From NCBI GenBank assembly GCA_021797515.1, contig JAJZZP010000127.1:1-64000 (forward strand): 64,000 nt of DNA, given 5' to 3'. The notes below the pieces were generated by a model. The model saw nothing but the letters and a program-made list of their open reading frames with translations, made no database searches and was not told where the DNA came from. This document shows, one piece after another, positions 8,309 to 28,807 of this stretch. The DNA comes from Bacillota bacterium (GTDB lineage: Bacteria > Bacillota > Sulfobacillia > Sulfobacillales > Sulfobacillaceae). Position numbers and translations under genes: made by a program. The first letter of the stretch is position 1. Each line of letters begins with the position of its first letter.

Positions 8309-8740
8309 ATGTTGATGGGCGAATATTTTCATGCCTTGGATGATAAAGGTCGTCTCATCCTTCCTGCTCGCCTTCGCGATGATCTTCAAGATCATTTTGT
8401 CATGACTAAAGGACTCGATGGTTGTTTGTTTTTTTACGCCATGGACGAATGGCAAAAAATGGAGGAGAGATTAAGGTCTCTTCCAATGACAAATGCTAAT
8501 GCGCGAGCTTTTCAACGATTGTTTCTGGCGGGAGCTCAAGATGTGGAAGTTGACCGCCAATTTCGGATTACCATTCCTCCTCGATTGCGGGAATTTGCCG
8601 GAGTGCAAAAAGATGTAGTGCTCGTCGGAGTCAGCAGTCGCGTCGAGTTATGGGCCCTTGATCGATGGACAGAGTACCAATCGACCGCTCAAGCAGGTTA
8701 CGAAGACGTTGCAGAGAAAATGGGAGACTTCGGTTTTTGA
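8309..8740 (+). CDS. mraZ: Transcriptional regulator MraZ
   Basis: 143 aa, the usual length. MraZ is an AbrB-fold, ring-forming DNA-binding protein that controls the division and cell wall cluster it heads. Both SpoVT/AbrB-like halves are visible: GEYFHALDDKGRLILPARLR at the N-terminus and VEVDRQFRITIPPRLREFA near residue 75, each with the DxxGR- or DRQFR-type signature. ATG 8309 follows GGAGGTGA by 7 nt. An ATG at 8315 is possible, but homologues keep two or three residues before GEY. It is the first gene of the dcw operon. Confidence 0.95.
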   Translation: MLMGEYFHALDDKGRLILPARLRDDLQDHFVMTKGLDGCLFFYAMDEWQKMEERLRSLPMTNANARAFQRLFLAGAQDVEVDRQFRITIPPRLREFAGVQKDVVLVGVSSRVELWALDRWTEYQSTAQAGYEDVAEKMGDFGF

Positions 8741-8756
8741 GGGAGGTGGTGGCTTG

Positions 8757-9647
8757 GTGACATTTACTCATGTAAGTGTTATGCCCGAGCAGGTTTTGGC
8801 CCACTGGGTCACAGACCCGTCCGGGTTATACCTTGACGCAACATTAGGCGGAGGAGGTCATAGCCACTTGCTGCTATCTCAATTTCCCGACTGTCGTCTC
8901 ATTGCTATTGACCAGGATCCTGCGGCAGTGTCCCAAGCTCATGATCGGTTAGGAGCATGGAGTTCCCGGGTGTCGATACGCCAGGGTAATTTTCGCAGGT
9001 TAGACGATATTTTGAGCCCAGACGAAAAAGGCGCGGTTCAGGGTATCTTGTTTGACTTAGGAGTATCTTCACCACAACTAGACCAGATGGCGCGCGGATT
9101 TGGCTACCAAAATATCGATGCCCCTTTGGATATGCGGATGGATCCCGATAATCCAGTCACCGCATTTCGATTAGTAAATATGAAGCCTAGAGAAGATATT
9201 ATCCGTGCTCTAAAAGAGTGGGGCGAAGAGCGTTGGGCATCGCGGATTGCAGACTTCATCGTGAGTGCCAGGGAGAAAGAGCCCATTCGCACGACCGGTC
9301 AACTGGTGGAATTAATTAAAGCGGCCATTCCGGCTTCGGCGCGGAGAACAGGAGGACATCCCGCCCGGAGGACGTTTCAAGCCCTGCGTATCTGGGTCAA
9401 TGATGAATTGGCGGCATTAAAGCAAGGACTGGCTGCTGCTATTGACGTTGCTGCACCCAAAGGGCATATTGTGGCCATTTCATTTCAATCGCTCGAAGAC
9501 CGCATAGTTAAACACACGTTCCGGGAATGGCAGGCAAGTCAACGCGGAATTGTAGTTACCCGTCGGCCACTCATTCCCTCCCCTGAGGAAATCGAAAGTA
9601 ATCCGCGGTCTCATTCGGCCAAATTGCGCGCTTTTGCTAAGGGTTAG
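8757..9647 (+). CDS. rsmH: 16S rRNA (cytosine-1402-N4)-methyltransferase RsmH
   Basis: 296 aa. SAM-dependent N4-methylation of C1402 in the 16S rRNA decoding centre. FTHVSVMPEQV at the N-terminus, the SAM-binding loop DATLGGGGHSHLLL, FDLGVSSPQLD and the C-terminal NPRSHSAKLRA are all family signatures. GTG 8757 follows GGGAGG (8741-8746). A TTG at 8754 is an equally possible start, whereas the frame further upstream runs inside mraZ. It is 16 nt after mraZ, the usual order. Confidence 0.95.
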   Translation: MTFTHVSVMPEQVLAHWVTDPSGLYLDATLGGGGHSHLLLSQFPDCRLIAIDQDPAAVSQAHDRLGAWSSRVSIRQGNFRRLDDILSPDEKGAVQGILFDLGVSSPQLDQMARGFGYQNIDAPLDMRMDPDNPVTAFRLVNMKPREDIIRALKEWGEERWASRIADFIVSAREKEPIRTTGQLVELIKAAIPASARRTGGHPARRTFQALRIWVNDELAALKQGLAAAIDVAAPKGHIVAISFQSLEDRIVKHTFREWQASQRGIVVTRRPLIPSPEEIESNPRSHSAKLRAFAKG

Positions 9648-9749
9648 CAGCGGGTCCTTATCCCGGGAATGCCTGTGTTCATAGCATCGACATAGTTCGT
9701 CTTAAGATAACAAATTTCGAGGTTTTGGTTCCAAGGAGGTTGAAGTTCA

Positions 9750-10208
9750 ATGATCAACCAGCAAGAAAATGAATATGTTTTGTACAAAGAGGGTAATTTA
9801 GCCCGCACTTGGGAAAAGAAACTGCGTCCCAAAATGACGCCGCGTCCTCGACGCAAATTTAACGGGCTAGCCCATACCATATTGTGGATTATGGGGGTTT
9901 GGGCTGTCGGTATGGGGGCGTCTCTTTTGGCTGTTCATGTCTTAGTGATGGGTTATCAGGTCGATGCCCTATCATCCCAATATACGGATTTGACTCGACA
10001 GAACCAAGTATTGGCTGCCACGGTGACCCAATTGAGTTCTCCTCAAGTTTTGGCGGCTGATAGCCAAAAATATCATGTAGCCCTCAAGAGTCCTATGATT
10101 CACACGGGCATTCACAGTGCCGCTCCTGCGGTTGCAAAGAGCACACCATGGTATGGACGCGTGTCGCAATGGATATTGGCTTTGCGGCAAGCATTAGTTG
10201 CCAAATGA
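9750..10208 (+). CDS. ftsL: FtsL-like cell division protein
   Basis: 152 aa with a single transmembrane segment (about residues 37-63), a basic cytoplasmic N-terminus (RPKMTPRPRRK) and an extracytoplasmic leucine-zipper-like coiled coil (VDALSSQYTDLTRQNQVL and onward), the FtsL/DivIC architecture. Sequence identity in this family is low, so the call rests on topology and position between rsmH and the PBP genes. It is longer at the C-terminus than typical 110-120-aa FtsL. AAGGAGG at 9734-9740 precedes ATG 9750. Its end overlaps the next gene by 4 nt. Confidence 0.8.
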   Translation: MINQQENEYVLYKEGNLARTWEKKLRPKMTPRPRRKFNGLAHTILWIMGVWAVGMGASLLAVHVLVMGYQVDALSSQYTDLTRQNQVLAATVTQLSSPQVLAADSQKYHVALKSPMIHTGIHSAAPAVAKSTPWYGRVSQWILALRQALVAK

Positions 10209-11941
10209 AGAAAAAATCTACGCACTTGGTGCGGCACCGGGCTCGGCTGCTGTTGCTGTACACAGCCTTGTTTTCGGCATTGCTGCTGGTTCGACTTCTC
10301 ATGATTCAGGTTGCCGACGCTAATCAACTTCATGCTTATGCCTCCAGCATTCATGTGCACCGCATTGCATTACCGGCGAGCCGGGGGGAGATTGTGGACC
10401 GCAACGGAATAGTGCTGGCAATGGATACTCCGACCTATCAAGTGGTTGCTGTACCCAAATATTTGACTTCACGAAAACAGGTGGAAAGCGCAGCGGTAAC
10501 TTTGGCCCATTATTTGCCGTTTTCCTCCAAGTTGTTGGCGTCAGTATTGGGTAATGGGTCATGGTATGCATTGCTGGCGCGTTCGGTATCCAGTGCTGTG
10601 GCGCATCAGATCTCAACGTTAAATTTGCCGGGAATCTCGGTGGTTCCGTCTACTGGGCGTGAATATCCTAACGGAACTTTGGCCTCGCAAGTGTTGGGAA
10701 TGGTGGGATCTCAAGGCCAAGGACTAGCGGGAGTAGAATACGAATACAATAAAATTTTGGCTGGCAAGCCAGGTAGTTGGGTTGTGAGAACCGACGCTGC
10801 CGGAAATCCGCTGCCACAATGGCAGCTAGCCTATAAGGCGCCGGTACCGGGTGATACCGTACAGTTGACCATTGATGCCAATATTGAAGCTGCTGCCCAA
10901 AAATGGTTGAAGTGGGGTATTAAGAGAGCCCATGCCCTCAACGGCACGGTCATTGTGCTCAATCCGCATACCGGATCTGTCATTGCGCTTGCCAACTGGC
11001 CCAATTTTAATCCCAACAATTACTACAATGCGACGCCGTTGCAGATGAACGATTATGCCGTAGAGGATCCGGTGCCGCCGGGCTCGATCTTCAAACCAGT
11101 CACGGCAACGGCGGGATTGACACTGGGTTTGTTTACGCCTAACAGTATGTTTGATACGGTAGGCTATAAAATCGTGGACGGAGTCCGCATTAACGATTGG
11201 AATCCAAATGGCTGGGGTTGGATTACACTGACGCGAGGGCTTGAGGTTTCCTCGGACCAGGTGTTTATGGATGTGGCGCTAAAAGTCGGAGCCGCAAGTT
11301 TGTATCATTTCATCAAGCTGTTCGGCTTTAACCATCCTAGCAATGTGGGGTTGCCTGGAGATTCCCCAGGGCTTTGGGTTCCTTTGAACCAGGTGAACCC
11401 GGTTGATTTGGCGACAATCGGATTCGGACAGGGCTTTGCCGCTACTGCAATGCAGATGGTTGCGGCGGATTCTGCGGTGGCCAACAATGGAGTCATGATG
11501 CAGCCGCATATTTTGAAAGCTGTCCTATCGCCCCATGGCACGGTGGTGAAAGCAGTGAAACCCAAAGTCGAATCTGTCACGACCACGCCAGCCATAGCCG
11601 AGGAAATACAGCATATGATGACCCTTGAAGCCACTCAGGGAACGGGAGTTCCAGCTCAGGTGCCAGGGTATATCATTGCTGGGAAAACGGGCACCTCGCA
11701 AAAAATTGTGAATGGACGCACCTCAAACAACTTGTTTATCGCGTCATATATGGGAATGGGCCCGATGCCCAAGCCTCGGTTTATCATGTTGGTCATGATT
11801 AACCGCCCGATTGGTAACTTATTTTATGGGGATCAAGTGTCGGCACCCGTGTGGAAACATATTGCGGAGTTTATGTTTCATTATTGGAACATTAAGCCTT
11901 ATGCGGGCCCGGACAATGGTTCCAAACCCTTGAAGCCCTAA
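10205..11941 (+). CDS. Class B penicillin-binding protein (FtsI/SpoVD type, no PASTA)
   Basis: 578 aa. D,D-transpeptidase for septal or spore peptidoglycan. It has one N-terminal transmembrane helix (about residues 14-35), a dimerisation domain starting with ASRGEIVDRNG, and a C-terminal transpeptidase domain. Active-site Ser294 lies in SIFK, and the KTGT motif is at Lys494. The second motif, normally SxN, reads S349-S-D351, so the Asn is replaced by Asp. There are no PASTA repeats. It overlaps ftsL by 4 nt (ATGA) and is followed by a second class B PBP whose three motifs fall at identical residue numbers, which indicates tandem duplication. Which of the two is vegetative and which sporulation-specific cannot be read from sequence. 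Confidence 0.9.
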   Translation: MKKKSTHLVRHRARLLLLYTALFSALLLVRLLMIQVADANQLHAYASSIHVHRIALPASRGEIVDRNGIVLAMDTPTYQVVAVPKYLTSRKQVESAAVTLAHYLPFSSKLLASVLGNGSWYALLARSVSSAVAHQISTLNLPGISVVPSTGREYPNGTLASQVLGMVGSQGQGLAGVEYEYNKILAGKPGSWVVRTDAAGNPLPQWQLAYKAPVPGDTVQLTIDANIEAAAQKWLKWGIKRAHALNGTVIVLNPHTGSVIALANWPNFNPNNYYNATPLQMNDYAVEDPVPPGSIFKPVTATAGLTLGLFTPNSMFDTVGYKIVDGVRINDWNPNGWGWITLTRGLEVSSDQVFMDVALKVGAASLYHFIKLFGFNHPSNVGLPGDSPGLWVPLNQVNPVDLATIGFGQGFAATAMQMVAADSAVANNGVMMQPHILKAVLSPHGTVVKAVKPKVESVTTTPAIAEEIQHMMTLEATQGTGVPAQVPGYIIAGKTGTSQKIVNGRTSNNLFIASYMGMGPMPKPRFIMLVMINRPIGNLFYGDQVSAPVWKHIAEFMFHYWNIKPYAGPDNGSKPLKP

Positions 11942-12014
11942 GGTTCTTTTGATTGCATGGCCTGCATAAGCATTGTGAGTAACAGCCCGTCCTGCAAAAG
12001 GAGGCTTGCTCACA

Positions 12015-14105
12015 ATGGATAGTCGACCGACGTTGGTGATGAAGCGCAGGAATTTTTTGGTGCTGGCTCTGGTGGGGGTGTTCGATGTCGGACTCTTGGG
12101 TCGTTTGGTTACGGTGCAAGGTGTTGAAGGGCCAAAATTACAAAAAATAGCAGAATCTGCTCATTTCCGAGGAGTGCCTTTAGCTGCCTTTCGCGGTAAC
12201 ATTGTTGATCGTCATGGACATCTTCTGGCTGGTAGCCATCATGCCTACTCGGCTTACGCGATTCCGATTCAAACCAGGAAACATCGATTTGCCGAAGCCA
12301 CTCTTCTATCCGTGATGTTGAATATGTCTGTGGACCGGTTGTTGCGTCGATTATCACGGCACCAGGGTTTTGTTTGGGTAAAAAGGCGTTTGACAGCTTC
12401 CGAGCTGGACCAAATACGCGGACAGATGGCCGCATTGCCGGGCGTTTATTTGGTGACTGAAACCGCCAGATATTATCCTGAAGGGGCATTAGTTGGTCCG
12501 GTACTGGGTTTTACCGGCATTGACAATCAAGGTCTAGCCGGTATCGAAATGGTTTATAACAAGTATTTGCAAGGAAAGCCCGGCAGTATTCAGGAAGAAT
12601 ATGATGTGACCGGGCAGACCATCCAATTTGCGCGGCAACGTGTAGTCCCGCCGTTACAAGGGGACACATTGGAATTAACATTGGATGAGAAAATTCAGTG
12701 GATGGCCGAACGTGCCTGCGAGCAAGCTATGATTACCACAGGAGCCAAGTCAGTTAGTATCGCGATAATGCACCCCCGCTCTGGTGGTCTTCTTGCGTTG
12801 GCCCAACGCCCGTCATTTGACCCAAATCATTTTAGAGACTATAACCCGAAAAATTACCGTGTACTAGCGGTGTCGGACACGATTCCGCCGGGGTCGATCT
12901 TTAAACCAGTGACCTTGGCAGCTGCTCTTGAGGAAGGTACTACCAGCCCGGGGGCAGGATTCTATTGCCCTGGGTTCAAAGTTGTGCTGGGACGCCGTGT
13001 GAACTGCTGGAGGCCTCAGGGTCATGGGGCAGAATCATTGGCTGCGGTCGTTAAAAATTCCTGCAATGTGGGGTTTATGGACTTGGGATTGGGGCTCGGA
13101 GTGGCTAAGTTTTATGAGTACTTAGACAAATTCGGAATCTCCAAACCCATACCTATAGACCTTCCTGGTCAAGCCCGGGGAATTTTTCCTAAAGCATCTC
13201 GGGTCACCGCATTAGATCTAGCGATTATGGCGTTTGGCCAAACTCTCACCGTGTCGCCGATCGCACTGCTAAACGCGATTTCCGCCATCGCCAATGATGG
13301 AACCCTACTGGTTCCTCATCTGGCAAGAGTGATCAAAAAACCAGACGGCACAGTGGTCAAACAGTTTGATCGCCAAGTGGTGCGACAAGTAGTATCTTTA
13401 CATGTGGCTCAGTTAGTGCAAAATATGATGGTTGCAGTCGTGTCTTCGGGTACCGGAAAGTTGGGACAGGTGCCGGGGTTTAGGATGGCCGGGAAGACGG
13501 GTACGGCCCAAAAGGTGATTAATGGGCGAGTGGAAAAGGGCGTGTATATCGCATCGTTTGTTGGATTTGGTCCCGTACCCAACCCCGAAGTGGCCATTAT
13601 GGTCAACGTGGATGAACCAGTAGGGGCGTTTTATGGAGGGCAGGTAGCCGCCCCCATATTTGCTCAGCTTGGCCGAGACATATTTAGACATTTAGGCCTT
13701 CAGCCCACAGAACCCATACTGCCGCCAAAAACTGGGTCGCTACAAATGGTGCCCAATCTGGTAAATTTGGACCCAGTGAGTGCTCAAGATGATGCCGAAG
13801 CCTTTGGATTTTCGGTACAATTTACAGGACAGGGAAATGTTGTAGTGGAACAATCGATTGAATATGGGGGTTGGCGCCCTACGGGAACATTGTTGCAATT
13901 GACGTTGGGACGTCATCCGAGAATCTATTTAGAGTGGGTGGCGGTTCCCAGCTTTGTTGGACTGCCGATCGGAACTGCACAACGACTAGCATTGGAGTTA
14001 GGTCTTAACGTGGTTCCTCAAGGGTTGTCGGTGGCACCCGTGGAACGGCAGTCTATTGTTGCCGGTACCGAAGTGCGATCCGGCACCACCATTGTGGTAA
14101 TGTAG
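12015..14105 (+). CDS. Class B penicillin-binding protein with PASTA domains (PbpB/SpoVD type)
   Basis: 696 aa from ATG 12015, with AAGGAGG at 11998-12004; a TTG at 12006 is too close to that site. It has an N-terminal transmembrane helix, a dimerisation domain (FRGNIVDRHG), and a transpeptidase domain with Ser294 in SIFK, S349-C-N351 (a normal SxN motif) and Lys494 in KTGT. The tail from about residue 575 has two PASTA-like repeats (MVPNLVNLDP and VAVPSFVGLPIG). Such repeats occur in SpoVD and PBP2x-type septal PBPs. It lies between its paralogue and murE, as pbpB-spoVD-murE in Bacillus subtilis. Confidence 0.92.
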   Translation: MDSRPTLVMKRRNFLVLALVGVFDVGLLGRLVTVQGVEGPKLQKIAESAHFRGVPLAAFRGNIVDRHGHLLAGSHHAYSAYAIPIQTRKHRFAEATLLSVMLNMSVDRLLRRLSRHQGFVWVKRRLTASELDQIRGQMAALPGVYLVTETARYYPEGALVGPVLGFTGIDNQGLAGIEMVYNKYLQGKPGSIQEEYDVTGQTIQFARQRVVPPLQGDTLELTLDEKIQWMAERACEQAMITTGAKSVSIAIMHPRSGGLLALAQRPSFDPNHFRDYNPKNYRVLAVSDTIPPGSIFKPVTLAAALEEGTTSPGAGFYCPGFKVVLGRRVNCWRPQGHGAESLAAVVKNSCNVGFMDLGLGLGVAKFYEYLDKFGISKPIPIDLPGQARGIFPKASRVTALDLAIMAFGQTLTVSPIALLNAISAIANDGTLLVPHLARVIKKPDGTVVKQFDRQVVRQVVSLHVAQLVQNMMVAVVSSGTGKLGQVPGFRMAGKTGTAQKVINGRVEKGVYIASFVGFGPVPNPEVAIMVNVDEPVGAFYGGQVAAPIFAQLGRDIFRHLGLQPTEPILPPKTGSLQMVPNLVNLDPVSAQDDAEAFGFSVQFTGQGNVVVEQSIEYGGWRPTGTLLQLTLGRHPRIYLEWVAVPSFVGLPIGTAQRLALELGLNVVPQGLSVAPVERQSIVAGTEVRSGTTIVVM

Positions 14106-14144: not shown

Positions 14145-15626
14145 ATGCTGTTGGAAGAACTGGGTAAGGCACTGGCGGAGGTGACACCGGTGGGGTCCCT
14201 TGATGTGGACCTCACCGGGATCGCCTATAATTCACGGGTGGTGGAACCAGGCAATCTGTTTTGTGCTATTCCAGGATTTCGTACTGATGGGCATCTTTAT
14301 TGCCAAGAAGCTATGGCACGTGGCGCCGCTGCATTTCTCGTGGAACGCTCCGAAGCGATACCTCAAGGCAAACCGGGATTGGTCGTTCCCAATGCCCGAG
14401 CTGCAATGGCGAAAGTTGCCGATCTTTTTTTTGGTAGCCCCTCACGACGATTATGGATGGTAGGGGTCACGGGTACCAATGGTAAGACGACAACAACCCA
14501 TCTGGTTCGAGCGCTTTTGGAGGCTAATGATGTGAGCTGTGGGTTGACTGGCACGCTGCATACTTTGATGGGGGTGGAGAGTTTCAAAGTCTCTCGGACC
14601 ACCCCGGAAGCGCCAGATCTGCAGAGCATTTTGCGACATATGGCAGACCGCGGCATGAAAGCCGCAGTAATGGAGGTGTCGTCACATGCACTGGTGCTGT
14701 CACGCGTGGATACCGTAGCGTATAATGTTGCGGTATTCACTAATTTGACGCAGGACCATCTCGACTTTCACCCCGATTTGGAATCCTATTTTCAAGCAAA
14801 ATCTTTGTTGTTTACCAGGCTGGGAGAAGTTCCCAAACCTGGTCCCATGGCTGCCGTCATTAATGGGGACGATCCCTATGCTGGGCGTTTAACGGCATTA
14901 AGTCATGTTCCGGTGGTCACGTATGGGCTCTCAGACGGTGTGGATGTAAGAGCCAGCACGGTGCAAATTGCCAGTCGTGGGGTGCAATTCCTGGCCGAAT
15001 TTCCTGATGGTCAAAATCAGGCGATCGAATTTGGAATGACGGGACGCTTCAATGTGTCCAATGCTTTGGCTGCGCTATCTGTAGGCTACGTATGGGGATT
15101 AGAGCCGCGTAAAATGGCGGAAGCTTTGGCTCGGTATCCAGGTGTTCCGGGACGCTTTGAAAGAATTGATGAAGGACAGCCGTTCACTGTCATCGTAGAT
15201 TATGCACACACGCCTGATGGCTTAAAGAATGTATTACAAACGGCGCGTGAGTTTGCCATGGGGCACATTGGCGTGGTGTTTGGGGCGGGAGGTGATAGGG
15301 ATCGGGGAAAACGTTCGATGATGGGTGAAGTGGCAGGACAATTGGCGGATTGGGTAATGCTGACCGCGGATAACCCACGATCCGAAGACCCGATGGATAT
15401 CATTCACCAGATTGCTCAAGGAGTAGAGCAATCGCATGGCCAGTACGAGGTGGAATTGGACCGTGAACGTGCCATCCGCCAAGCGCTGCATCGGGGGCAA
15501 CCTGGTGACGTGATCTTGATTGTTGGTAAAGGACATGAAACTTATCAAATCTACCGGGATGCCACTATTCATTTTGACGACCGAGAAGTGGCGCGACAAG
15601 TGTTGAAGGAGTTGCGCAAGGCATGA
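14145..15626 (+). CDS. murE: UDP-MurNAc-L-Ala-D-Glu:meso-DAP ligase MurE
   Basis: 493 aa. ATP-dependent addition of meso-diaminopimelate to the peptidoglycan precursor in the cytoplasm. The P-loop is GVTGTNGKTTTT near residue 110, the Mur ligase central domain carries EVSSHAL and NLTQDHLDFH, and the C-terminal domain has DNPRSEDP and GKGHETYQ. The DNPR sequence is the accepted signature for DAP over lysine. AGGAGGGG precedes ATG 14145. It overlaps murF by 4 nt (ATGA). Confidence 0.96.
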   Translation: MLLEELGKALAEVTPVGSLDVDLTGIAYNSRVVEPGNLFCAIPGFRTDGHLYCQEAMARGAAAFLVERSEAIPQGKPGLVVPNARAAMAKVADLFFGSPSRRLWMVGVTGTNGKTTTTHLVRALLEANDVSCGLTGTLHTLMGVESFKVSRTTPEAPDLQSILRHMADRGMKAAVMEVSSHALVLSRVDTVAYNVAVFTNLTQDHLDFHPDLESYFQAKSLLFTRLGEVPKPGPMAAVINGDDPYAGRLTALSHVPVVTYGLSDGVDVRASTVQIASRGVQFLAEFPDGQNQAIEFGMTGRFNVSNALAALSVGYVWGLEPRKMAEALARYPGVPGRFERIDEGQPFTVIVDYAHTPDGLKNVLQTAREFAMGHIGVVFGAGGDRDRGKRSMMGEVAGQLADWVMLTADNPRSEDPMDIIHQIAQGVEQSHGQYEVELDRERAIRQALHRGQPGDVILIVGKGHETYQIYRDATIHFDDREVARQVLKELRKA

Positions 15627-16975
15627 TGACGATGAGTTTTGGGGAAATCATAGAGTGGACCGGAGCTCTCCCGGAACACGTCGACGCGACACGAATCGTC
15701 ACTAATGTGACCATCGACAGCCGACAAACGATGCGTAACAGTTTGTTTATTGCCTTGCCAGGGACACGGCATCACGGGCATGAATTTGTCGCTGATGCGT
15801 GGCAGGCAGGGGCCACGGCAATGGTTGAGTCGACTTTTGGTTTATCTGGCGGACCATTGCTAAGGACTGACAACCCGCTTAGGGCCATGGACGATATCAT
15901 GCGCCAGATGATTTTAGCCCGCCACATCCACATCGTTGGCATTACGGGTAGTGTAGGCAAGACCAGTCTCAAGGAATTAGCCACAGCCGTATTACGCACC
16001 CGATATGATACGGGGCTGTCTCATGGGAATTACAACACGGCTATTGGTTTGCCCCTCTCCTTTTTCGGCGAATCCGACATGATGACCCACTTTGTCGCGG
16101 AAATGGGAATGCGGCAGCGCGGAGAAATCCAGTACCTCACCGAAATTGCTCCCCCGGAGGTGGCGGCGATTAGCAACATTGGCCCAAGTCATTTGGAGCA
16201 ATTAGGGTCGATGGCAGAAATTCAAGCAGCCAAAGGCGAAATTTTAGAAGGGTTAGTGCAGGGAGGCACTGCGGTACTAAATTACGATGATGTGCGGGTT
16301 CGCGAATTAGGGGAGAAGACGGGTCATCGGGTTTTGTGGTACGGTCACCATGCCCACTGTGATTTGCGAATTATTGCATCCCAAATTGAAAATTGGCATA
16401 CCCGCATCGAATTGGAAAATGATCGAGGGCGCTGGCGAGTTACTTTGCCCTGGATTGGAGCCCACCATGGGTCTAACGTTGCGGCGGCCCTATTGATTGG
16501 GGAGGTTTTAGGGATTTCCTTGCCAGATGGCATTCGCGGAATTGAAAATGTGGACCAAGAGCGGTCTCGCATTCGCCCCATAACAATGGGACAAATGATG
16601 TTGCTTAAAGATGTCTATAATGCCAGTCCGGTTTCGATGAAAGCTGGAATCGATGTCTTGAAAAGCTTTCCGGGACGAAAGGTTGCCGTTTTGGGAGACA
16701 TGTTGGAACTTGGAACCGCAGAAATGCAAAGCCATTGGGAAATAGGACAATACGCTCAGGATCATGCGGATTTGGTGGTCGCCATTGGGCCGCGAAGTCA
16801 CATGATTGCTCAAGGCGCTGGGTCCGTGGGACAACATTGTGAAACTCTTGAGGATGCCTTTCAATTGTTGCAGCAGATTTTGCGCCCGAATGACGTAGTC
16901 TTATTGAAGGCTTCTCGGGGTATGCACTTTGAAGATCTGGCGCGTTGGCTTGAGGATTGGGGTGGCCCCCAATGA
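15623..16975 (+). CDS. murF: UDP-MurNAc-tripeptide:D-Ala-D-Ala ligase MurF
   Basis: 450 aa. Adds D-alanyl-D-alanine to UDP-MurNAc-tripeptide. The N-terminal substrate domain includes VTIDSRQTMRNSLFIAL, the P-loop reads GITGSVGKTSLKE, and further motifs are MGMRQRGEI, NIGPSHLEQLGS, and DVYNASPVSMKAG in the C-terminal domain. It is linked to murE and mraY by 4-nt overlaps. No D-Ala-D-Ala ligase gene lies in the window. Confidence 0.96.
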   Translation: MMTMSFGEIIEWTGALPEHVDATRIVTNVTIDSRQTMRNSLFIALPGTRHHGHEFVADAWQAGATAMVESTFGLSGGPLLRTDNPLRAMDDIMRQMILARHIHIVGITGSVGKTSLKELATAVLRTRYDTGLSHGNYNTAIGLPLSFFGESDMMTHFVAEMGMRQRGEIQYLTEIAPPEVAAISNIGPSHLEQLGSMAEIQAAKGEILEGLVQGGTAVLNYDDVRVRELGEKTGHRVLWYGHHAHCDLRIIASQIENWHTRIELENDRGRWRVTLPWIGAHHGSNVAAALLIGEVLGISLPDGIRGIENVDQERSRIRPITMGQMMLLKDVYNASPVSMKAGIDVLKSFPGRKVAVLGDMLELGTAEMQSHWEIGQYAQDHADLVVAIGPRSHMIAQGAGSVGQHCETLEDAFQLLQQILRPNDVVLLKASRGMHFEDLARWLEDWGGPQ

Positions 16976-17913
16976 TCTTATGGGCGGCTGGACTGGTAGC
17001 GTTTGCCATGACCTTCGGCATGGGTCCCGTGGTGATTCCGTTGCTGACCCGACTGAGGTTAGGGCAAATGGTGCGAGAAGCGGGCCCGCAATCCCATTTA
17101 AAGAAGCAGGGAACACCCACTATGGGAGGAATATTATTCTTACTGCCTCTGCCGGTGGTGGTGGCAATCTTTGATCGGCAAAGTCTGGAGGCTTGGGCAC
17201 TGGTTTTTATCATCTGGGGGTTTGGATTGGTGGGGTTTGCCGATGATTTCCTGAAGGTGGCGTTAAAACGTCCGTTGGGACTTCGAGCCCGAGAAAAACT
17301 TTTGCTGCAAGTCGTCCTGGCCGTGGTGTTCACCTGGGTAGTTGGCCAAGTGCTGCATCTGGACCAAAATTATGTGCTGCCTTTTGGGTTGGGCACGATC
17401 AGTCTCAAGTGGTGGTTTGGGCCGCTATCGGTACTGGCGATCTTGGGAAGTGGCAATGCAGTGAATATCACGGATGGGTTGGACGGTCTGGCTGCCGGGG
17501 CCACGGGCATTGCCATGATGTTTTTTACCTTCTGGGGTGTCGCTTTCCACCACAACACGGTGTCCTTGGTGGGGATGGCCATGGCGGCTGGTTTATTGGG
17601 GTTCTTGCGTTACAATGTCCATCCTGCCCGCGTTTTTATGGGTGACACCGGTTCACTGGCATTGGGAGCAGCGTTGGCCGGGTTGGCCGTTGTAAGTCAG
17701 ACAACTTTATTGCTGCCCTTAATAGGTATTTTGTTTGTCGTAGAAACTCTGTCGGTCATTATTCAAGTGATTAGCTTCAAACTCACTGGGAAAAGGGTGT
17801 TTCGCATGAGTCCTATCCACCATCACTTTGAACTGGGTGGGTGGCCGGAAGAACGCGTGGTATCGGTGTTTTGGATATTTTCTATTTTGGGGGCATTGTT
17901 GGCCTGGTGGTAA
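16972..17913 (+). CDS. mraY: Phospho-MurNAc-pentapeptide translocase MraY
   Basis: 313 aa integral membrane enzyme with about ten hydrophobic segments. It transfers phospho-MurNAc-pentapeptide to undecaprenyl phosphate to make lipid I. Signatures seen are HLKKQGTPTMGG, GFADDFLKV (Mg-binding DD), NITDGLDGLAAG, MGDTGSLALG and SPIHHHFELGG. The ATG at 16972 overlaps the murF stop by 4 nt. FtsW/SpoVE follows directly after 23 nt, with no murD between them. Confidence 0.96.
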   Translation: MILWAAGLVAFAMTFGMGPVVIPLLTRLRLGQMVREAGPQSHLKKQGTPTMGGILFLLPLPVVVAIFDRQSLEAWALVFIIWGFGLVGFADDFLKVALKRPLGLRAREKLLLQVVLAVVFTWVVGQVLHLDQNYVLPFGLGTISLKWWFGPLSVLAILGSGNAVNITDGLDGLAAGATGIAMMFFTFWGVAFHHNTVSLVGMAMAAGLLGFLRYNVHPARVFMGDTGSLALGAALAGLAVVSQTTLLLPLIGILFVVETLSVIIQVISFKLTGKRVFRMSPIHHHFELGGWPEERVVSVFWIFSILGALLAWW

Positions 17914-17936
17914 CGCTGCGGGGTGGGAGAAACGCG

Positions 17937-19034
17937 ATGTCACAAGCGAAACAACGTATAGATTATATTCTGGTTGGAGCGGTGCTGTCGCTATTAGCGA
18001 TTGGTACGGTCATAGTGTTTTCAGCAAGTGCCGACACGGCTTATCAGCAATTCGCATCACCCTACTACTATTTAGAACATCAACTGGCATGGGCGGTCAT
18101 TGGCATTTTGGTGATGGCAGTCGCGGCACGTATCGATTATTGGCGCTATAAGCGCCTTATCTTGCCACTCTATGTGATTTCGGTTGGCCTTTTGGTACTG
18201 GTATTAATACCGCATATAGGGATTAATATTAATGGGGCACGGCGTTGGCTTGGGGTGGGGTCTTTGCAAGTTCAACCCTCAGAATTGGCAAAACTGGCGA
18301 TGATTTTTATGTTTGCCCACTTGTTTAGTCGGCATCAAGACCGATTGGATGATTTTTGGCATGGCGTGGTGCCGCATATCCTGCTCGCCAGCCTTATCTT
18401 TGTGCTGGTTCTGGCCGAACCGGATCTAGGCACAACGGTTGTCATTGCCGGAACATTTTTTGTCATGCTGTTCGTAGCAGGTCTGCAAAAAAAGCACTTG
18501 TTGGGACTGACTGCCGTAGGTACCCCGATTTTGGCTTGGGCCATGTTAGGGGAGCAGTATCGAAGGCAGCGATTGCTCGCGTTTATTGATCCTTGGAAGC
18601 ATCCGCTAGGAGTTGGCTTCCATACCATTCAGGCACTCTTGGCACTAGGTTCTGGCGGAGTTTTGGGAGTGGGGCTGGGTTATTCCCGGCAGGCACTCGG
18701 ATTTCTTCCGGAATCCTTTACCGATTTTATCTTTGCCATTTTAGGAGAAGAACTGGGACTGTTGGGTACGGTGACTGTGGTGCTCTTGTTTTTGGTGGTG
18801 GCATGGCGTGGCTATCGGGTGGCAATGCGGGCTCCTGACCTGTTCTCTAGTCTTTTGGCCACAGGAATTACCACGATGATTGCGATTCAAGCGGCAATAA
18901 ACATCGGGGTGGTTACCGCTACCCTGCCGGTTACCGGCATTACGTTGCCGTTTATTAGTTACGGGGGATCCTCTTTGGTGTTGAGTCTTGCTGGCGTCGG
19001 CATCTTGCTCAATATTAGCAGGAACGCAATATGA
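17937..19034 (+). CDS. FtsW/SpoVE-type peptidoglycan glycosyltransferase (SEDS family)
   Basis: 365 aa polytopic membrane protein, about ten transmembrane helices. SEDS proteins polymerise lipid II and work with a class B PBP; two candidate partners are encoded upstream. Signatures are IDYILVGAVLSLLAIG at the N-terminus, LVLAEPDLGTT in the middle, DFIFAILGEELGLLG, and the C-terminal PITGITLPFISYGGSS. Start ATG 17937 has GGGTGGGAGA upstream. The vegetative (FtsW) or sporulation (SpoVE) role cannot be separated by sequence. The dcw position fits either. Confidence 0.93.
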   Translation: MSQAKQRIDYILVGAVLSLLAIGTVIVFSASADTAYQQFASPYYYLEHQLAWAVIGILVMAVAARIDYWRYKRLILPLYVISVGLLVLVLIPHIGININGARRWLGVGSLQVQPSELAKLAMIFMFAHLFSRHQDRLDDFWHGVVPHILLASLIFVLVLAEPDLGTTVVIAGTFFVMLFVAGLQKKHLLGLTAVGTPILAWAMLGEQYRRQRLLAFIDPWKHPLGVGFHTIQALLALGSGGVLGVGLGYSRQALGFLPESFTDFIFAILGEELGLLGTVTVVLLFLVVAWRGYRVAMRAPDLFSSLLATGITTMIAIQAAINIGVVTATLPVTGITLPFISYGGSSLVLSLAGVGILLNISRNAI

Positions 19035-19095
19035 CCATTTGCATACGCTAGGAGTGTTCCCCAAAACGAGGCTTAAGCAGCAGGGAGCGATGGAA

Positions 19096-20193
19096 GTGAA
19101 GATGGTGGTAACCGGGGGTGGCTCCGGAGGTCACATTTATCCGGCGTTGGCCATTGTTGATGCCATGCGGCGGCGCGATTCCGATCTTGAGGTTCTCTAT
19201 GTCGGAACGGACCATGGTTTGGAGAAGGACCTTGTGACAAGAGCCGGCATTCCGTTTGCAACCATCCACGCACGAGGTCTCTTGGTTCATGGATGGGCAG
19301 CTAAACTAGGCGGTGCTGTGGCAGCGACACGTGGCCTTCGAGATGCATTGATCTTGCTGTCACGGTATCGTCCTTCAGTGGTGGTAGGCACTGGCGGTTA
19401 TGTTTCCGGCCCCGTCGGGCTGGCGACAGTTATCTTGCGTCAACCCTTGGTATTGCAAGAACAAAATGTTTGGCCGGGATTTACCAATCGCAAGCTAGCG
19501 ACGCATGCGACCAAGGTTTTGGTCCCTTTTGAAGAGGCGAAGTCCAACTTTCCTCCTGGATCGCCTCTGACGGTGGTGGCGAATCCGGTAACAATTTCGG
19601 TGACTGACTCTAAAGCGATGATCCGAGACGAATTAGGGATGCCAAGAGATACGGTCGTAATATTGGCCACGGGAGGCAGCCAAGGTGCGAAGGCACTGAA
19701 TCAATTTTTGCTGTCATGGGTAAGCAGGCTAAATGATGAACAAAATTGGGGAATTTTTTGGATGACTGGGAAACGCTATTACCCAGAGATCAAAGCGCAA
19801 CTGGGCCAAATGGCGTTGGACCCCAAAAGGGTTCTGGTGGTCGAATACTTTTATCAGATACAAAAGTATCTTCGTGCTTCGGATATATTTTTTGGTCGCG
19901 CCGGAGCGATGAGTGTGGCCGATTGTGCGGCGTTTGGCTTGCCCGCAGTACTGGTGCCATCACCCAATGTATCTGAGGACCATCAAACCCGCAATGCCGA
20001 GGTGTTGGTCAAACGCGGAGCGGGATACATGGTGCCGGAATCACAATTGCAAATCCGTGGGGCCTCGGTATTGGAGAAAGTTTTAATGGATAGCGGTCTG
20101 CGGGACAAAATGAGGCAAAATGTGCAAAGCCTTTTTGACCCCGAGGCGGAAAACAAGGTCGTGGATGCCATTTTGCAAGCGGCGCGAGTGTGA
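19096..20193 (+). CDS. murG: UDP-GlcNAc:lipid I N-acetylglucosaminyltransferase MurG
   Basis: 365 aa. Converts lipid I to lipid II at the cytoplasmic membrane face. The N-terminus MKMVVTGGGSGGHIYPALAI has the GGGxGGH donor loop, followed by GTGGYVSGP, QEQNVWPGFTN and ATGGSQGAKALNQ. I place the start at GTG 19096 because AGGGAG (19082-19087) is 8 nt away and the protein then aligns with the usual MKIVV start. ATG 19090 is only 2 nt from that site. The next gene is murB, 15 nt on. Confidence 0.95.
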   Translation: MKMVVTGGGSGGHIYPALAIVDAMRRRDSDLEVLYVGTDHGLEKDLVTRAGIPFATIHARGLLVHGWAAKLGGAVAATRGLRDALILLSRYRPSVVVGTGGYVSGPVGLATVILRQPLVLQEQNVWPGFTNRKLATHATKVLVPFEEAKSNFPPGSPLTVVANPVTISVTDSKAMIRDELGMPRDTVVILATGGSQGAKALNQFLLSWVSRLNDEQNWGIFWMTGKRYYPEIKAQLGQMALDPKRVLVVEYFYQIQKYLRASDIFFGRAGAMSVADCAAFGLPAVLVPSPNVSEDHQTRNAEVLVKRGAGYMVPESQLQIRGASVLEKVLMDSGLRDKMRQNVQSLFDPEAENKVVDAILQAARV

Positions 20194-21192: not shown

Positions 21193-22394
21193 AAGGATCA
21201 AAAAACGCGGCACTGCCGATTATGGCGGCGTCGATACTGGCGACAGGCGCGGTGATTTTAGACGGAGTGCCGCGTCTTCGGGACATTGAGGTCATGATTC
21301 AGGTGCTCCAATCGCTGGGAGCAAGGGTCCAGTGGGAAGCTTCCCGACTCATCATCGATCCGCGCCCTATTAATCAATATGTAGTTCCTGCAGAATTAAT
21401 GCAACAAATGCGAGCCTCCATTTTTGTAACAGGACCCTTGCTGGCGCGGATGGGACGGGCTGTCGCTTTCCAGCCGGGCGGCTGCAATATTGGCGATCGG
21501 CCTATCGATTTGCACGTTAATGGATTAATCAAACTCGGTGCCCAAAGCCGAACCCAGGAGGGTCAACTATTGTTGGAGACCGTCGGGCTTAAGGGTACCG
21601 AAGTACACTTGTCCTACCCTTCGGTGGGCGCAACAGAAAACATCATGATGGCAGCTGTGTTGGCCCGAGGCGAGACCCGGATTCGAAACGCGGCAATGGA
21701 GCCGGAGATTGTGGATTTAGCGCAATTTTTAGAAACGATGGGCGCAACTATACGTGGGGCGGGTACATCGGATGTACGCATAGAAGGCCGTGAGTCACTT
21801 CATGGTACCGAATACACCATTATTCCCGACCGTATTGAGGCCGGAAGTTTTGCTCTGGCGGCAGCCTTGACGGAAGGTCAGGTGCGTCTGGAAAATTGTT
21901 TGGTGGATCATCTTCCGGGACTTTGGGGTCGCATGCGAGAGGTGGGGGTAGAAGTCCGGGAAGTTGACGCGGAAACGGTGGAGATTGTAGCGCCCAAACG
22001 ATACCGTCGCACGTCGGTATCCCTGCATACTAACCCCTACCCCGGGTTTGCTACGGATTTGCAGCCCCAGTTTATGGCGTTTTTGCTCAAAGTACCTGGT
22101 GTCCATCTGATTTCGGAGAGGGTGTTTGAAAATCGGTTAGGACATGCACGAGAGTTCCGACGCATGGGGGCGCAGGTCGCGGCGGATCAACGGGTTGCCT
22201 TAATTTACGGCGGCCACGAACTATATGGGGCCCAGGTAACGGCAATGGATCTTAGAGCGGGGGCCGGATTAATCCTGGCAGCGCTCGGGGCCAATGGTCA
22301 AACCACCATTGAGGGCCGGGAGGTTATTGAACGCGGCTATGAGAATTTGGCACAGCGTTTATCCCAGCTAGGGGCTGACGTAACGTCTCTGTAA
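21138..22394 (+). CDS. murA: UDP-GlcNAc 1-carboxyvinyltransferase MurA
   Basis: 418 aa. First committed step of peptidoglycan synthesis, transfer of enolpyruvate from PEP. Signatures are KGSKNAALPIMAASIL near residue 20, the catalytic Cys116 in QPGGCNIGDRP (Cys is the fosfomycin target), and LHTNPYPGFATDLQPQFMA. The standard length is 417-420 aa, which supports ATG 21138 even though that places 55 nt of the gene inside murB. An upstream in-frame ATG at 21054 would add residues not found in the family. Confidence 0.95.
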   Translation: MGQFVVRGGRRLEGTLRVKGSKNAALPIMAASILATGAVILDGVPRLRDIEVMIQVLQSLGARVQWEASRLIIDPRPINQYVVPAELMQQMRASIFVTGPLLARMGRAVAFQPGGCNIGDRPIDLHVNGLIKLGAQSRTQEGQLLLETVGLKGTEVHLSYPSVGATENIMMAAVLARGETRIRNAAMEPEIVDLAQFLETMGATIRGAGTSDVRIEGRESLHGTEYTIIPDRIEAGSFALAAALTEGQVRLENCLVDHLPGLWGRMREVGVEVREVDAETVEIVAPKRYRRTSVSLHTNPYPGFATDLQPQFMAFLLKVPGVHLISERVFENRLGHAREFRRMGAQVAADQRVALIYGGHELYGAQVTAMDLRAGAGLILAALGANGQTTIEGREVIERGYENLAQRLSQLGADVTSL

Positions 22395-22415
22395 GGTATA
22401 CTAAAAGCAAAGGAC

Positions 22416-23135
22416 GTGCGATGGGTGGGTAGGCTGGCGATGGGCGGCTCTTGGCGGTGGGGCTTAATCTTGGGTATGGTGTGTATGGTATTGGGGATGG
22501 GGTTAAGTCAGCAACTGCGGTTGGTGTCCCAGTTGAACAACACGACTCGCGTACAACAGGGGCGCATCCTAACATTTCTTGTCACACGGACAGTGGAACA
22601 AAACCAGTCCTTGAGGAACCAAATCGCTAATCTCCTCAATCGCGTCAACAACCTGCCATCTCCCATGGTGACACCGATGGCGGAAAAATTGGCGGTGATT
22701 AGACGTATGGCTGGATTGACCTCTGTCGAGGGACCTGGGGTTGAGGTGATCTTGCACGACGCAGTCAAACCTTCATATCCGGGAGAACCTTCAGTGTATC
22801 AGCTGGTCCACGATCAATACGTGTTGCATGTGGTCGCTCTGCTCTCTGCCGCAGGCGCCACTGCCATTTCTATTGATGGGCAGCGGTACGTTTCGACCAC
22901 TTCAATATTTTGTGCTGGACCTACTATCCGCATCAATGGTATCAATTACGGAGCACCTTATGTAGTGCTTGCTGTAGGCGCACCTCAGGCTTTGTTGACG
23001 GCTTTAGCAGATGATCCCGATGTCCAGGGGTGGTCCCAGTTAGTCTCCATCAGCTATCGGGCCGAGAACCGTTTGAAAGTTGTGGGGTATCGCGGCCAGG
23101 TACAGTTTAACAATGCCAGACCTGCTAAGATATAA
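22416..23135 (+). CDS. DUF881-family division-cluster membrane protein (YlxW/YlxX-like)
   Basis: 239 aa. One N-terminal transmembrane helix (about residues 12-32), a short coiled coil (NQSLRNQIANLLNRVNNL), then the DUF881 domain with the typical AGLTSVEGPGVEVILHD stretch. In Bacillus such genes (ylxW, ylxX) sit between divIB and sbp-ftsA-ftsZ; here the neighbours sbp, ftsA and ftsZ are the same but divIB is missing. The biochemical role is unknown. The start is uncertain: GTG 22416 is close behind AAAGGA, and ATG 22440 is an alternative. Confidence 0.85.
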   Translation: MRWVGRLAMGGSWRWGLILGMVCMVLGMGLSQQLRLVSQLNNTTRVQQGRILTFLVTRTVEQNQSLRNQIANLLNRVNNLPSPMVTPMAEKLAVIRRMAGLTSVEGPGVEVILHDAVKPSYPGEPSVYQLVHDQYVLHVVALLSAAGATAISIDGQRYVSTTSIFCAGPTIRINGINYGAPYVVLAVGAPQALLTALADDPDVQGWSQLVSISYRAENRLKVVGYRGQVQFNNARPAKI

Positions 23136-23165
23136 GGTAGCAGGGCAGGGGGTTGGATTCTAGCG

Positions 23166-23534
23166 ATGTGGATTGTGGTTGTCGGGTTATTGGTCGGGAT
23201 TGTGATTGGGCTGGAATTTCCTATAATTGTGCCCTTGGCCTTTGCGCAATATCTCTCTATAGCCTTGCTAGCGGCATTGGATACGGTGTTTGGCGGGGCG
23301 CGAGCTGGCTTGCAGGGGAAATTCGTGCCCGCGACTTTTGTGACTGGGTTGCTGACTAACGCCATATTGGCGGGGCTGCTAACATATCTCGGCAATAAGC
23401 TTGGTGTCCCACTTTATTATGCTGCGCTGTTTGCGTTTGGCTACCGAATTTTTCAGAACTTGGGCACCATCCGCCACCTGCTGATCGACCGTTGGATAAA
23501 ATCTCGATCAAAATTGCATCAATCCTCTTTGTGA
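23166..23534 (+). CDS. sbp: Small basic protein Sbp (DUF1290)
   Basis: 122 aa, three or four transmembrane helices with a basic C-terminus (WIKSRSKLHQ). GLEFPIIVPLAFAQYLSIALLAALDTVFGG and GYRIFQNLGTIRHLL are characteristic of the Sbp family that lies upstream of ftsA in many Firmicutes. Its function is not established. The position between the DUF881 gene and ftsA is the usual one. Confidence 0.9.
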   Translation: MWIVVVGLLVGIVIGLEFPIIVPLAFAQYLSIALLAALDTVFGGARAGLQGKFVPATFVTGLLTNAILAGLLTYLGNKLGVPLYYAALFAFGYRIFQNLGTIRHLLIDRWIKSRSKLHQSSL

Positions 23535-23607
23535 GGCAGGAATATCTGCAGGGCAAAGAGAAAGGAACATTAAAGGATGGTGTCGAAATTATCCGCGGAG
23601 GTGTGCT

Positions 23608-24804
23608 GTGCCTAAACGCCCACTGATTTTAGCCATAGATGTTGGCACCACCAAAGTGTCGGCGTTAGTTGCGGAAGTGCGTCCGGACGGAGAGTTGGCA
23701 GTTTTGGGCATTTCGGCGACGCCCGTGGTGGGAATGCGAAGAGGATTAGTCTTTGAGGTGGAACGCGTGGCGTTGGCTATTCGGGATGCCGTAAACCGTT
23801 CCAATAGCATGGCAGGAACCGATTTAACCCAAGCAGCTGTGGCAGTTAATGGGGATCATTTGACGATTGTTCCGGGACAAGCCCGGATGGGCCTGAAAAC
23901 AGGCACTATCCGAGAAGAAGATTTACGGGCGGTACTGACTAAGGCAGCGCAGATACCGCTAGATGGGGACCACGAGGCCATTCAAACTCTGCGGCGGGGA
24001 ATTAGCGTGGATGGTTTTCGGGGGGTGGTGGACCCCGTTGGGATGGTCGCTCACCAATTAGAGGCCGATGTGTTTGTGGTATCCGGGGCGTCCACGGTGG
24101 TGCGCAATCTGCGACGCGTGGTGACTATGGCCGGGATAACACCTACGATTTTGGTGCCCACGCCGCGTGCTTCCGCAGAAGCGGTGTTGTCCGATGATGA
24201 AAAGCAATTGGGCGTGGTGCATCTGGATATTGGAGGAGGTACCACTGGCATTACTGTATACCGTTCAGGCCATCTCCAATATTTGGGTGTCGTGCCTCTC
24301 GGTGGGGAGTCGATTACATCCGACTTAAGTGTAGGACTGGGAGTAGTGGCCACTCAGGCAGAACGACTCAAACTTGAATACGCAGCGGTAGGGGCAGATC
24401 GGGAAGGAACCTTAGAGGTACGTGCGGTGAGTGGCCAATCCGTAAAACTGATTCCGGTAAAAGAATTGGAAGACATTGTGGAAGCCCGGGTTGATGAATG
24501 GACGCAGTTTGTGGAAAGCCACTTGCAGCGTATCGAATGGCCTAAAGGGCCAGCCGCTGGGGTAGTAATGACCGGCGGAGGTGCCATGCTTAAGGGCCTA
24601 GGATCTCATATTGAATCTCGGTGGGGGTGGCCGGTACGTCTGGGAGCTCCTTTTGGGTTGGGTGGGCTCTCGGATTTGTCAAAAAGCCCCGGATATGCGA
24701 CTGTGGTAGGGGTAGCAAAAAATGCAATGGCAGGGGGCGTAAGACCAGAACCGGAATCGGTATGGGACCGCCTTATAAAATTTTGGATGCATTTATGGAC
24801 ATAA
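23608..24804 (+). CDS. ftsA: Cell division protein FtsA
   Basis: 398 aa actin-like ATPase that anchors FtsZ to the membrane. The phosphate-binding loops are AIDVGTTKVSALVAE near the N-terminus and HLDIGGGTTGITVY in the middle, with GGESITSDLSVGL and MTGGGAMLKGL following. The final residues WDRLIKFWMHLW form the expected amphipathic membrane-targeting helix. GTG 23608 has GGAGGT (23597-23602). It ends 36 nt before ftsZ. Confidence 0.95.
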   Translation: MPKRPLILAIDVGTTKVSALVAEVRPDGELAVLGISATPVVGMRRGLVFEVERVALAIRDAVNRSNSMAGTDLTQAAVAVNGDHLTIVPGQARMGLKTGTIREEDLRAVLTKAAQIPLDGDHEAIQTLRRGISVDGFRGVVDPVGMVAHQLEADVFVVSGASTVVRNLRRVVTMAGITPTILVPTPRASAEAVLSDDEKQLGVVHLDIGGGTTGITVYRSGHLQYLGVVPLGGESITSDLSVGLGVVATQAERLKLEYAAVGADREGTLEVRAVSGQSVKLIPVKELEDIVEARVDEWTQFVESHLQRIEWPKGPAAGVVMTGGGAMLKGLGSHIESRWGWPVRLGAPFGLGGLSDLSKSPGYATVVGVAKNAMAGGVRPEPESVWDRLIKFWMHLWT

Positions 24805-24840
24805 ACGCCAAGCCCGGCAGGGCCCCAGGGAGGTTCTAGG

Positions 24841-25902
24841 ATGTTGGAATTTGATCAATCGGCGGAAAACTTTGCGGTCATTAAAGTGGTGGGGGTAGGG
24901 GGCGGCGGCACAAATGCGGTAAATCGCATGATTCACGCTGGCCTCAAAGGAGTAGAATTTATTGCCATTAATACTGATGCCCAGGCCCTGGCATTGTCAA
25001 TGGCGCCCACTAGACTGCAGGTTGGAACCAAACTTACCAAGGGTCTCGGTGCCGGCGCTAATCCCGATATTGGTCAAAAGGCCGCTGAGGAGAGTCGGGA
25101 ATTGATTGCCGATTCACTCAAAGGGGCAGATATGGTGTTTATCACTGCGGGAATGGGTGGCGGCACGGGCACCGGAGCTGCCCCGGTCGTGGCTGAAGTG
25201 GCCAAAGAGGTGGGCGCGTTAGCAGTAGGCGTGGTGACCAAACCCTTTACTTTTGAAGGCCGTCGGCGTCAGAGCTTTGCGGAAAAAGGCGCCTCCAATC
25301 TCAAAGCCAAGGTGGATACACTGATTACCATTCCCAACGACCGGTTGTTGCAGGTAGTCGAAAAGCGTACGGCGATTGTAGAAGCGTTTCGCATTGCAGA
25401 CGATGTATTGAGGCAAGGGGTTCAAGGTATTTCTGACTTGATTGCAGTACCCGGGCTGATTAATTTAGATTTTGCCGATGTCAAGACCATTATGTCGGAA
25501 ATGGGGTCGGCATTGATGGGGGTTGGAATCAGCCAGGGTGAGAACAGGGCCGCAGCGGCAGCCAAAGCAGCCATTTCCAGCCCGCTTTTGGAGACCAGCA
25601 TCGACGGTGCTCGAGGAGTTTTGTTGAATATTACCGGTGGGAATGACTTGGCTCTGTTTGAAGTCAATGAAGCGGCAGAAATTGTGATTCAAGCAGCCGA
25701 TCCGGAAGCCAATATAATATTTGGCGCCGTGATCGATGAGTCACTCAAAGATGAGGTTCGCGTCACCGTGATAGCCACCGGCTTCTCTGGGGAACGCGGC
25801 ATCCGCAGGCCCGAAGTGGATGCCGGTCGTGAAGAACTGGAGATAAAGCCGTTTGCTAATGACGATTTGGACATCCCGGCATTCCTCAGGCGACGAACGT
25901 AA
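24841..25902 (+). CDS. ftsZ: Cell division GTPase FtsZ
   Basis: 353 aa tubulin homologue forming the Z ring. GTP-binding signatures are [13 protein letters not shown] near residue 20 and [16 protein letters not shown] near residue 105; the T7-loop region follows [11 protein letters not shown]. The C-terminal peptide [11 protein letters not shown], which binds FtsA and SepF, is present after a very short linker (only about 25 residues). GGGAGG (24829-24834) precedes ATG 24841. A terminator follows, closing the dcw operon. Confidence 0.98.
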
Positions 25903-25920
25903 ACCTAAGGTAGCAAGGCG

Positions 25921-25949
25921 AAATCCGCCCCCTTCGGGGCGGATTTTTT
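25921..25949 (+). terminator. Rho-independent terminator after ftsZ
   Basis: Stem CCGCCCC (25925-25931), loop CTTC, stem GGGGCGG (25936-25942), flanked by AAAT and ATTTTTT. It lies 20 nt after the ftsZ stop and separates the division cluster from the sporulation genes. Confidence 0.93.
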
Positions 25950-26081
25950 GTCGGCAATTTGGTGGACTGACTTTTCTTTCTGTGACAGGTTTTTTTAAGT
26001 TAGGTGCCTAGAATATGGTTCAGAGACATACCGGGCATGGCTCGCTGCATAGGGTGTGATAGGAGACAAGGGGGGATTGTC

Positions 26082-27703: not shown

Positions 27704-27739
27704 TATCACCAATACTATTAGAAAAATCAGGATTTACCA

Positions 27740-28771: not shown

Positions 28772-28807
28772 ACGACCCTGGGTTGAATCAACAAGGAGAT
28801 TGAAGTC

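Follow-up and report, generated by a model that had tools for sequence, protein, structure and literature searches.

SpoVD and some PBP2s are among the closest known relatives of the two penicillin-binding proteins (PBPs) analysed here, and are covered by two studies (PMC9334274, PMC9974482). In these proteins the middle residue of the SxN motif is a cysteine that binds Zn2+ together with a histidine and two Cys or Asp residues (PMC9334274, PMC9974482). The ligand set of a Zn2+-binding PBP is given in the first of these studies as C/D, C/D, H and the Cys at position x of SxN (PMC9334274), and the site spacings printed in the second are C-x12-C-x6-H-x12-C for SpoVD and C-x14-C-x5-H-x12-C for PBP3 (PMC9974482). 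The second study also prints the motif of class B PBPs as S-x-N/D, with D385 as the third residue in A. baumannii PBP2 (PMC9974482). A narrow search of open-licence papers found nothing on a zinc-less SSD variant of the kind described below.

Identification and genomic context of the two PBP genes

The window, a stretch of 64,000 nucleotides from a member of the Sulfobacillales, carries two adjacent PBP genes on the + strand. PBP A (bp 10205 to 11941) is 578 aa long, and PBP B (bp 12015 to 14105), which is of the SpoVD type, is 696 aa long. PBP_dimer and Transpeptidase domains were found in both proteins and a transglycosylase domain in neither, which places both in class B, and the SxxK, SxN/D and KTG motifs are in register in the two sequences if D is allowed at the third position, as in PMC9974482. 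In PBP A these motifs are S294-I-F-K (bp 11084 to 11095), S349-S350-D351 at the SxN position (bp 11249 to 11257) and K494-T-G (bp 11684 to 11692). Read from ATG 12015, PBP B has S294-I-F-K, S349-C-N351 and K494-T-G at the same residue numbers, which become 297, 352 and 497 when counted from TTG 12006, the start given in the ORF list. ATG 12015 is the better start because a GGAGG ends 10 nt upstream of it, as against 1 nt upstream of TTG 12006. A domain search gave two PASTA matches in PBP B, the better-scoring one at bp 13938 to 14099, and none in PBP A. Residue positions and domain matches thus agree with the first-pass annotation, which had described tandem class B PBPs with SSD in the first, SCN in the second and no PASTA domain in the first.

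The equal residue numbers had also been taken as the sign of a clean duplication, and this part of the description was abandoned. The two proteins are only 35% identical (E 1e-121, 5 gapped columns in 567), which rules out a recent duplication, and the paralogues appear to have split before the order arose (see below). The matching numbers rest in part on gaps that cancel each other, so the equality indicates common descent and not a clean, recent event. The placement of the SSD motif itself held up, since the SSD of PBP A stood opposite the SCN of SpoVD when PBP A was aligned with hmmer to the C. difficile protein (7rcz); this register rules out a misplaced motif.

TIGR02214 (spoVD_pbp) was the top-scoring family for both proteins, with 535 bits for PBP B and 392 bits for PBP A, both under the cut-off of 688 bits. 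PBP A scored 297 bits against TIGR03423 (pbp2_mrdA), under its cut-off of 455, and these profile scores, along with the grouping of PBP A with SpoVD/FtsI-type rows, rule out a misfiled MrdA. AlphaFold models were obtained with a pLDDT of 91.7 for PBP A and 87.9 for PBP B. Among PDB entries, Foldseek matched the PBP A model best to 7rcz, the SpoVD of C. difficile (E 4e-52), and to PBP3 of P. aeruginosa, from which the fold, as modelled, looks intact. Five Transpeptidase matches were found in the host genome, namely PBP A, PBP B, an MrdA-like PBP (locus L003), a protein judged by eye to be of class A type (L004) and a short piece at a contig end (L005). The nearest named relatives of this genome are Sulfobacillus benefaciens and S. 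thermotolerans.

Both genes lie in a dcw cluster, all of it on the + strand. Upstream are mraZ, mraW and an ORF in the ftsL position (bp 8309 to 10208); this last ORF is without a Pfam match, and its stop overlaps the ATG of PBP A at 10205. Downstream are a murE-type Mur ligase, murF, mraY, an ftsW/spoVE-type SEDS gene and murG (bp 14145 to 20193), of which the Mur ligase at 14145 and the SEDS gene were assigned by Pfam and murF, mraY and murG by eye. Sporulation genes stand alongside division genes farther on, where ftsA, ftsZ, spoIIGA, two sigma factors and spoIIR follow (bp 23608 to 29458); Pfam supplied ftsA, spoIIGA, spoIIR and one sigma factor (at 26900), and the other sigma factor (at 27998) was recognised by eye, as was ftsZ. 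With spoIIGA, the sigma factors and spoIIR downstream in the window, the organism should be able to sporulate. Among ORFs of at least 150 aa at bp 22394-23608 no FtsQ/DivIB was recognised, and only a DUF881 ORF lies between a murA-like ORF and ftsA. The host genome has three class B PBPs and two SEDS matches, so that one SEDS protein may serve two PBPs, and PBP A and PBP B probably share the one encoded in the dcw cluster. In family f2, with genes identified by eye, the A copy is located outside the dcw cluster and the B copy inside it (L062 and L063 versus L073 and L079).

Conservation of the SSD and SCN motifs

All 26 PBP A copies available as loci carry SSD, the copy in the window included. 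The same motif was found in 37/37 distinct rows at least 48% identical to PBP A, and SCN in 53/53 distinct rows at least 50% identical to PBP B, each count including the window's own row. The first-pass annotation had proposed that homologues be aligned to see whether the Asp is conserved, and among these relatives it is fixed, which rules out a sequencing error or a strain-specific change at D351. For a broader view, FtsI/SpoVD-type rows were pooled; the 358 rows were de-duplicated because many genomes had been entered twice, and the removal of 45 duplicates and of 4 short or motif-less rows left 309, a few of them of the MrdA type. Their motifs were SCN (199 rows), SSD (50), SSN (24), SAN (21), SDN (5) and SCD (4), with SDD and SLN in two rows each and SRN and SVN in one row each.

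An Asp at this position is also found among MrdA-type PBPs. All five aligned MrdA-type PDB chains have S-x-D (SND, SCD, SCD, SAD and SAD), although two of the five, 7zg8 and 8zpc, look like one protein. The MrdA-like PBP of the host genome (G000, contig C27, L003:571-2529) has SDD and is without the zinc-site His and Cys. SDD was likewise read in 27/27 distinct MrdA-like rows of the order (28 rows with one sequence present twice, two further matches from the order having been left out). Of the other MrdA-like rows in this survey, 32 in number, 25 have SCN instead. The view of the Asp as a departure from SxN therefore stands in part: it is unusual among FtsI/SpoVD-type rows but not across class B PBPs, where PBP2s with S-x-D occur. 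Its oddness was overstated because the motif has been written in print as S-x-N/D, and because a PBP2 with S-x-D is a functioning enzyme and a drug target (PMC9974482). The SSD of PBP A is real, conserved and biologically meaningful, yet a variant of known parts, and it makes clear that the MrdA branch is not the only one in which SxD arises.

The zinc-ligand site

All four ligand residues of the Zn2+-binding PBPs are present in PBP B as C318, C331, H337 and C350 (bp 12966 to 13064, + strand; ligand set as in PMC9334274 and PMC9974482). Their spacing, C-x12-C-x5-H-x12-C, is near those printed for SpoVD and PBP3, and PBP B is predicted to bind Zn2+. PBP A has T318, D331, W337 and S350 at these positions and, going by these residues, falls outside the Zn2+-binding PBPs. 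Across the 309 pooled rows, the Cys at position x of SxN and the His were both present in 201 rows and both absent in 102, and only 6 rows were split. With 303/309 rows keeping or losing His and Cys jointly, the SpoVD-type zinc site acts as one unit, and this co-occurrence indicates that PBP A lost the whole site and not a single residue. The Cys/His pair was missing from 53 of the 56 rows that bear the Asp, and the remaining three are SCD rows (L104, L107 and L111). Judged by residue, rows with SAN, SSN, SDN or SSD were all classed as putatively zinc-less. The zinc site contributes to keeping the SxN loop in place, and its loss is a larger difference between PBP A and PBP B than the Asp; this loss had been overlooked in the first-pass annotation.

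Descent of the two copies

In a FastTree analysis of 119 hand-picked rows, all FtsI-type rows with SxD from the class formed one clade of 20 with a support of 99. The clade was recovered (SH-aLRT 98) by IQ-TREE from 70 hand-picked rows with the ligand and SxN block removed, where it held 16 rows from about nine families (f1, f2, f3, f96, f110, f115, f122, f123 and L075/L078). Its sister in the 70-row tree consisted of the PASTA-less SDN copies of f121 (support 94), and the SCN partners from the families of the SxD clade clustered together less firmly (87). Judging from these sequences, PBP A and PBP B are an ancient pair that appears to have split before the order arose.

Asp was gained twice on the 70-row FtsI-type tree, the second case being L170. 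This separate SSD copy (genome G141, family f69) is 565 aa long and has a near-normal charge content, and its genome also holds an SCN paralogue, L149, at another locus. Family f115 (L346, L351, L354 and L355) has two types of SSD paralogue, and one of its genomes, G277, carries both types along with one SCN copy. PASTA domains were found in all six SxD copies tested from outside the order (L335, L346, L340, L349, L075 and L078), and no PASTA match was obtained in PBP A, L009, L028 or the f121 copy L452. This pattern means that the absence of PASTA from PBP A is either a secondary loss or a feature shared with f121.

It is possible, though somewhat unlikely, that no separate duplication took place and that PBP A is a direct orthologue of Bacillus PbpB (PBP2B), the pair being the old pbpB-spoVD tandem. 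In B. subtilis the class B PBP PbpB stands beside spoVD within the dcw cluster, and PBP A occupies the equivalent place. In L203 and L219 a PbpB-like copy with SSN likewise adjoins one with SCN, and an AU test did not reject a single clade of the SxD rows and the L203 SSN copy (p 0.13). The best tree, however, placed the SSN copy of L203 among further copies from the phylum and was better by 32 log units, although the forks involved were weakly supported.

Division and spore cortex

The sporulation protease SpoIVB scored over the cut-off in 134/151 genomes of the class. Two genomes, G295 and G296, which are the homes of L075 and L078, have one FtsI-type match each, with SSD, and one MrdA-like match each, with SCD. 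No SpoIVB match was found in either, and SpoIVB was present in 4/4 other genomes of the same search. The L075 and L078 genes are contained in L468 and L469, and G295 and G296 appear, from equal E-values and sizes, to be identical with the f86 genomes G229 and G203, respectively, which are 96-97% complete.

In 56 genomes from the SxD-bearing families, a B match of whole-copy strength was found in 48/50 genomes with SpoIVB and 1/6 genomes without it (Fisher p 3e-5), where the status of B was mostly taken from match strength rather than read sequence and the genomes are not independent. When f86 was counted once the association had a p of 0.0016, and when only genomes at least 90% complete were also required, 0.018. 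Genomes lacking both SpoIVB and B outside f86 are G021 and G273 (82% complete). Counter-cases were also seen: G006 (100% complete) has both copies and no SpoIVB match, and G288 and G237 have SpoIVB and no B match at whole-copy strength. Furthermore, many sporulators of the class have a single copy only, of the SCN, SAN or SSN type, so sporulation in them does not depend on a zinc-type SpoVD. The position of the A copy rather than the B copy outside the dcw cluster in f2, and the scores of both proteins under NCBI's SpoVD cut-off, also speak against this assignment of roles. The joint absence of B and SpoIVB, together with the lone SSD copies, favours PBP A for division and PBP B for cortex. 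Most likely, then, PBP A is the division PBP, a role in keeping with G295 and G296, where an SSD copy is the only match of the FtsI type, and with the nearby FtsW-type SEDS gene, and PBP B is the cortex PBP SpoVD.

The explanation that we favour, and regard as reasonably probable, is that the two proteins are ancient duplicates of a dcw-cluster PBP, B being a zinc-type SpoVD for the cortex and A a zinc-less division transpeptidase of the Asp type. An ancient duplication of the class B PBP in the dcw cluster would have given rise to PBP A and PBP B. PBP B would be the SpoVD copy, with a predicted Zn2+-binding Cys3His site, SCN and PASTA domains, acting in the spore cortex. PBP A would be the vegetative copy, most likely a septal transpeptidase in the FtsI role, paired with the SEDS protein of the dcw cluster. 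With Trp in place of His and Ser in place of Cys, PBP A would have lost the clamp that zinc provides for the SxN loop, and at the third position of the motif Asp would have replaced Asn a single time, at the root of the clade that spans about nine families. By analogy with MrdA-type PBP2, Asp351 might hold the substrate or the lactam amide through hydrogen bonds from the facing wall of the cleft. Since the zinc site and the choice of N or D differ together in this natural pair, whose genes are neighbours in one cluster, the role of each could be tested by exchange.

Alternative explanations for the Asp

Adaptation to acid offers another account, which we consider unlikely. Sulfobacillus is acidophilic, and PBP A and the MrdA-like PBP would face a very acid medium in which metal is not retained by a Cys/His site and Asn can give way to a protonated Asp, while PBP B, in the sheltered forespore space, would keep SCN and zinc. 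The contents of D+E and K+R in the ectodomains are low in PBP A (6.4 and 7.3%) and in the MrdA-like SDD protein (6.5 and 6.1%), and are 8.0 and 11.1% in PBP B and 11.9 and 11.0% in the rest of the FtsI-type set. The uniform SDD of the order's MrdA-like rows fits this account, as does a set of 19 additional MrdA-like rows from the class, where SxD was found in 13/13 rows at no more than 16.5% charged residues and SxN in 6/6 rows at 17.8% or above. However, the changes to Asp number only 3 on the MrdA tree and 2 on the FtsI-type tree, and independent-pair tests, with 2 and 5 pairs, are unable to reach significance; in the FtsI-type pair test Asp was not associated with charge at all. In f116 and f121 the FtsI-type copies have equally few charged residues, yet show SAN, SVN, SSN or SDN, and among MrdA-like rows L276 (f5) has SCD at normal charge and L274 (f6, 17.0%) has SVN. 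SpoIVB, which is expected in the sheltered space of PBP B and hence to have normal charge, is as poor in D+E as PBP A (4.3-6.3% in 8 rows from f1-f3), and this weakens the sheltered-forespore version of the idea; its K+R content is often higher in families other than f1-f3 (survey of 50 rows, 8 of which, pieces under 100 aa, were left out). A connection of the Asp with exposure to acid is thus suggestive, but phylogenetically unsupported and partly contradicted. The full form of the account, in which both vegetative class B PBPs of the order, as an acid-living lineage of sporulators, dropped the metal clamp and took a protonated Asp while the spore PBP kept its zinc ligands and Asn, seems to us improbable; if true, the pair would indicate which transpeptidase is in contact with the outside acid.

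The suggestion of the first-pass annotation that the Asp gives PBP A a low affinity for, or insensitivity to, beta-lactams, or alters its choice of peptide, is very unlikely. In its favour, the SxN motif is described as important for substrate binding, and C. difficile PBP2 bound Bocillin about 5-fold more weakly once one of its zinc ligands was removed (C551S; PMC9334274). Against it, an S-x-D PBP2 is a normal beta-lactam target and zinc-site mutants of A. baumannii PBP2 were more, not less, susceptible to beta-lactams (PMC9974482), and inspection by eye of the listed ORFs near PBP A showed no resistance gene. Neither resistance nor a new choice of peptide thus found support in this analysis.

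Comparison with known PBPs

B. subtilis PbpB is, like PBP A, a class B PBP next to spoVD in the dcw cluster, and the PbpB-like copies L203 and L219 have SSN as opposed to the SSD of PBP A. The MrdA-type PBP2s of E. coli, A. baumannii and P. aeruginosa share the S-x-D form with PBP A. Unlike them, PBP A scores higher with spoVD_pbp than with pbp2_mrdA (392 versus 297 bits, both below cut-off) and groups with SpoVD/FtsI-type rows in the tree. SpoVD of C. difficile and B. subtilis, as described in PMC9334274, resembles PBP B in the Cys-Cys-His-Cys ligands, the SCN motif, the PASTA domains and the location in the dcw cluster. C. difficile SpoVD (7rcz) is also the best PDB match of PBP A, both by sequence and by fold, and the two have the same fold, but unlike SpoVD, PBP A is without the His and Cys ligands and PASTA domains and carries SSD.
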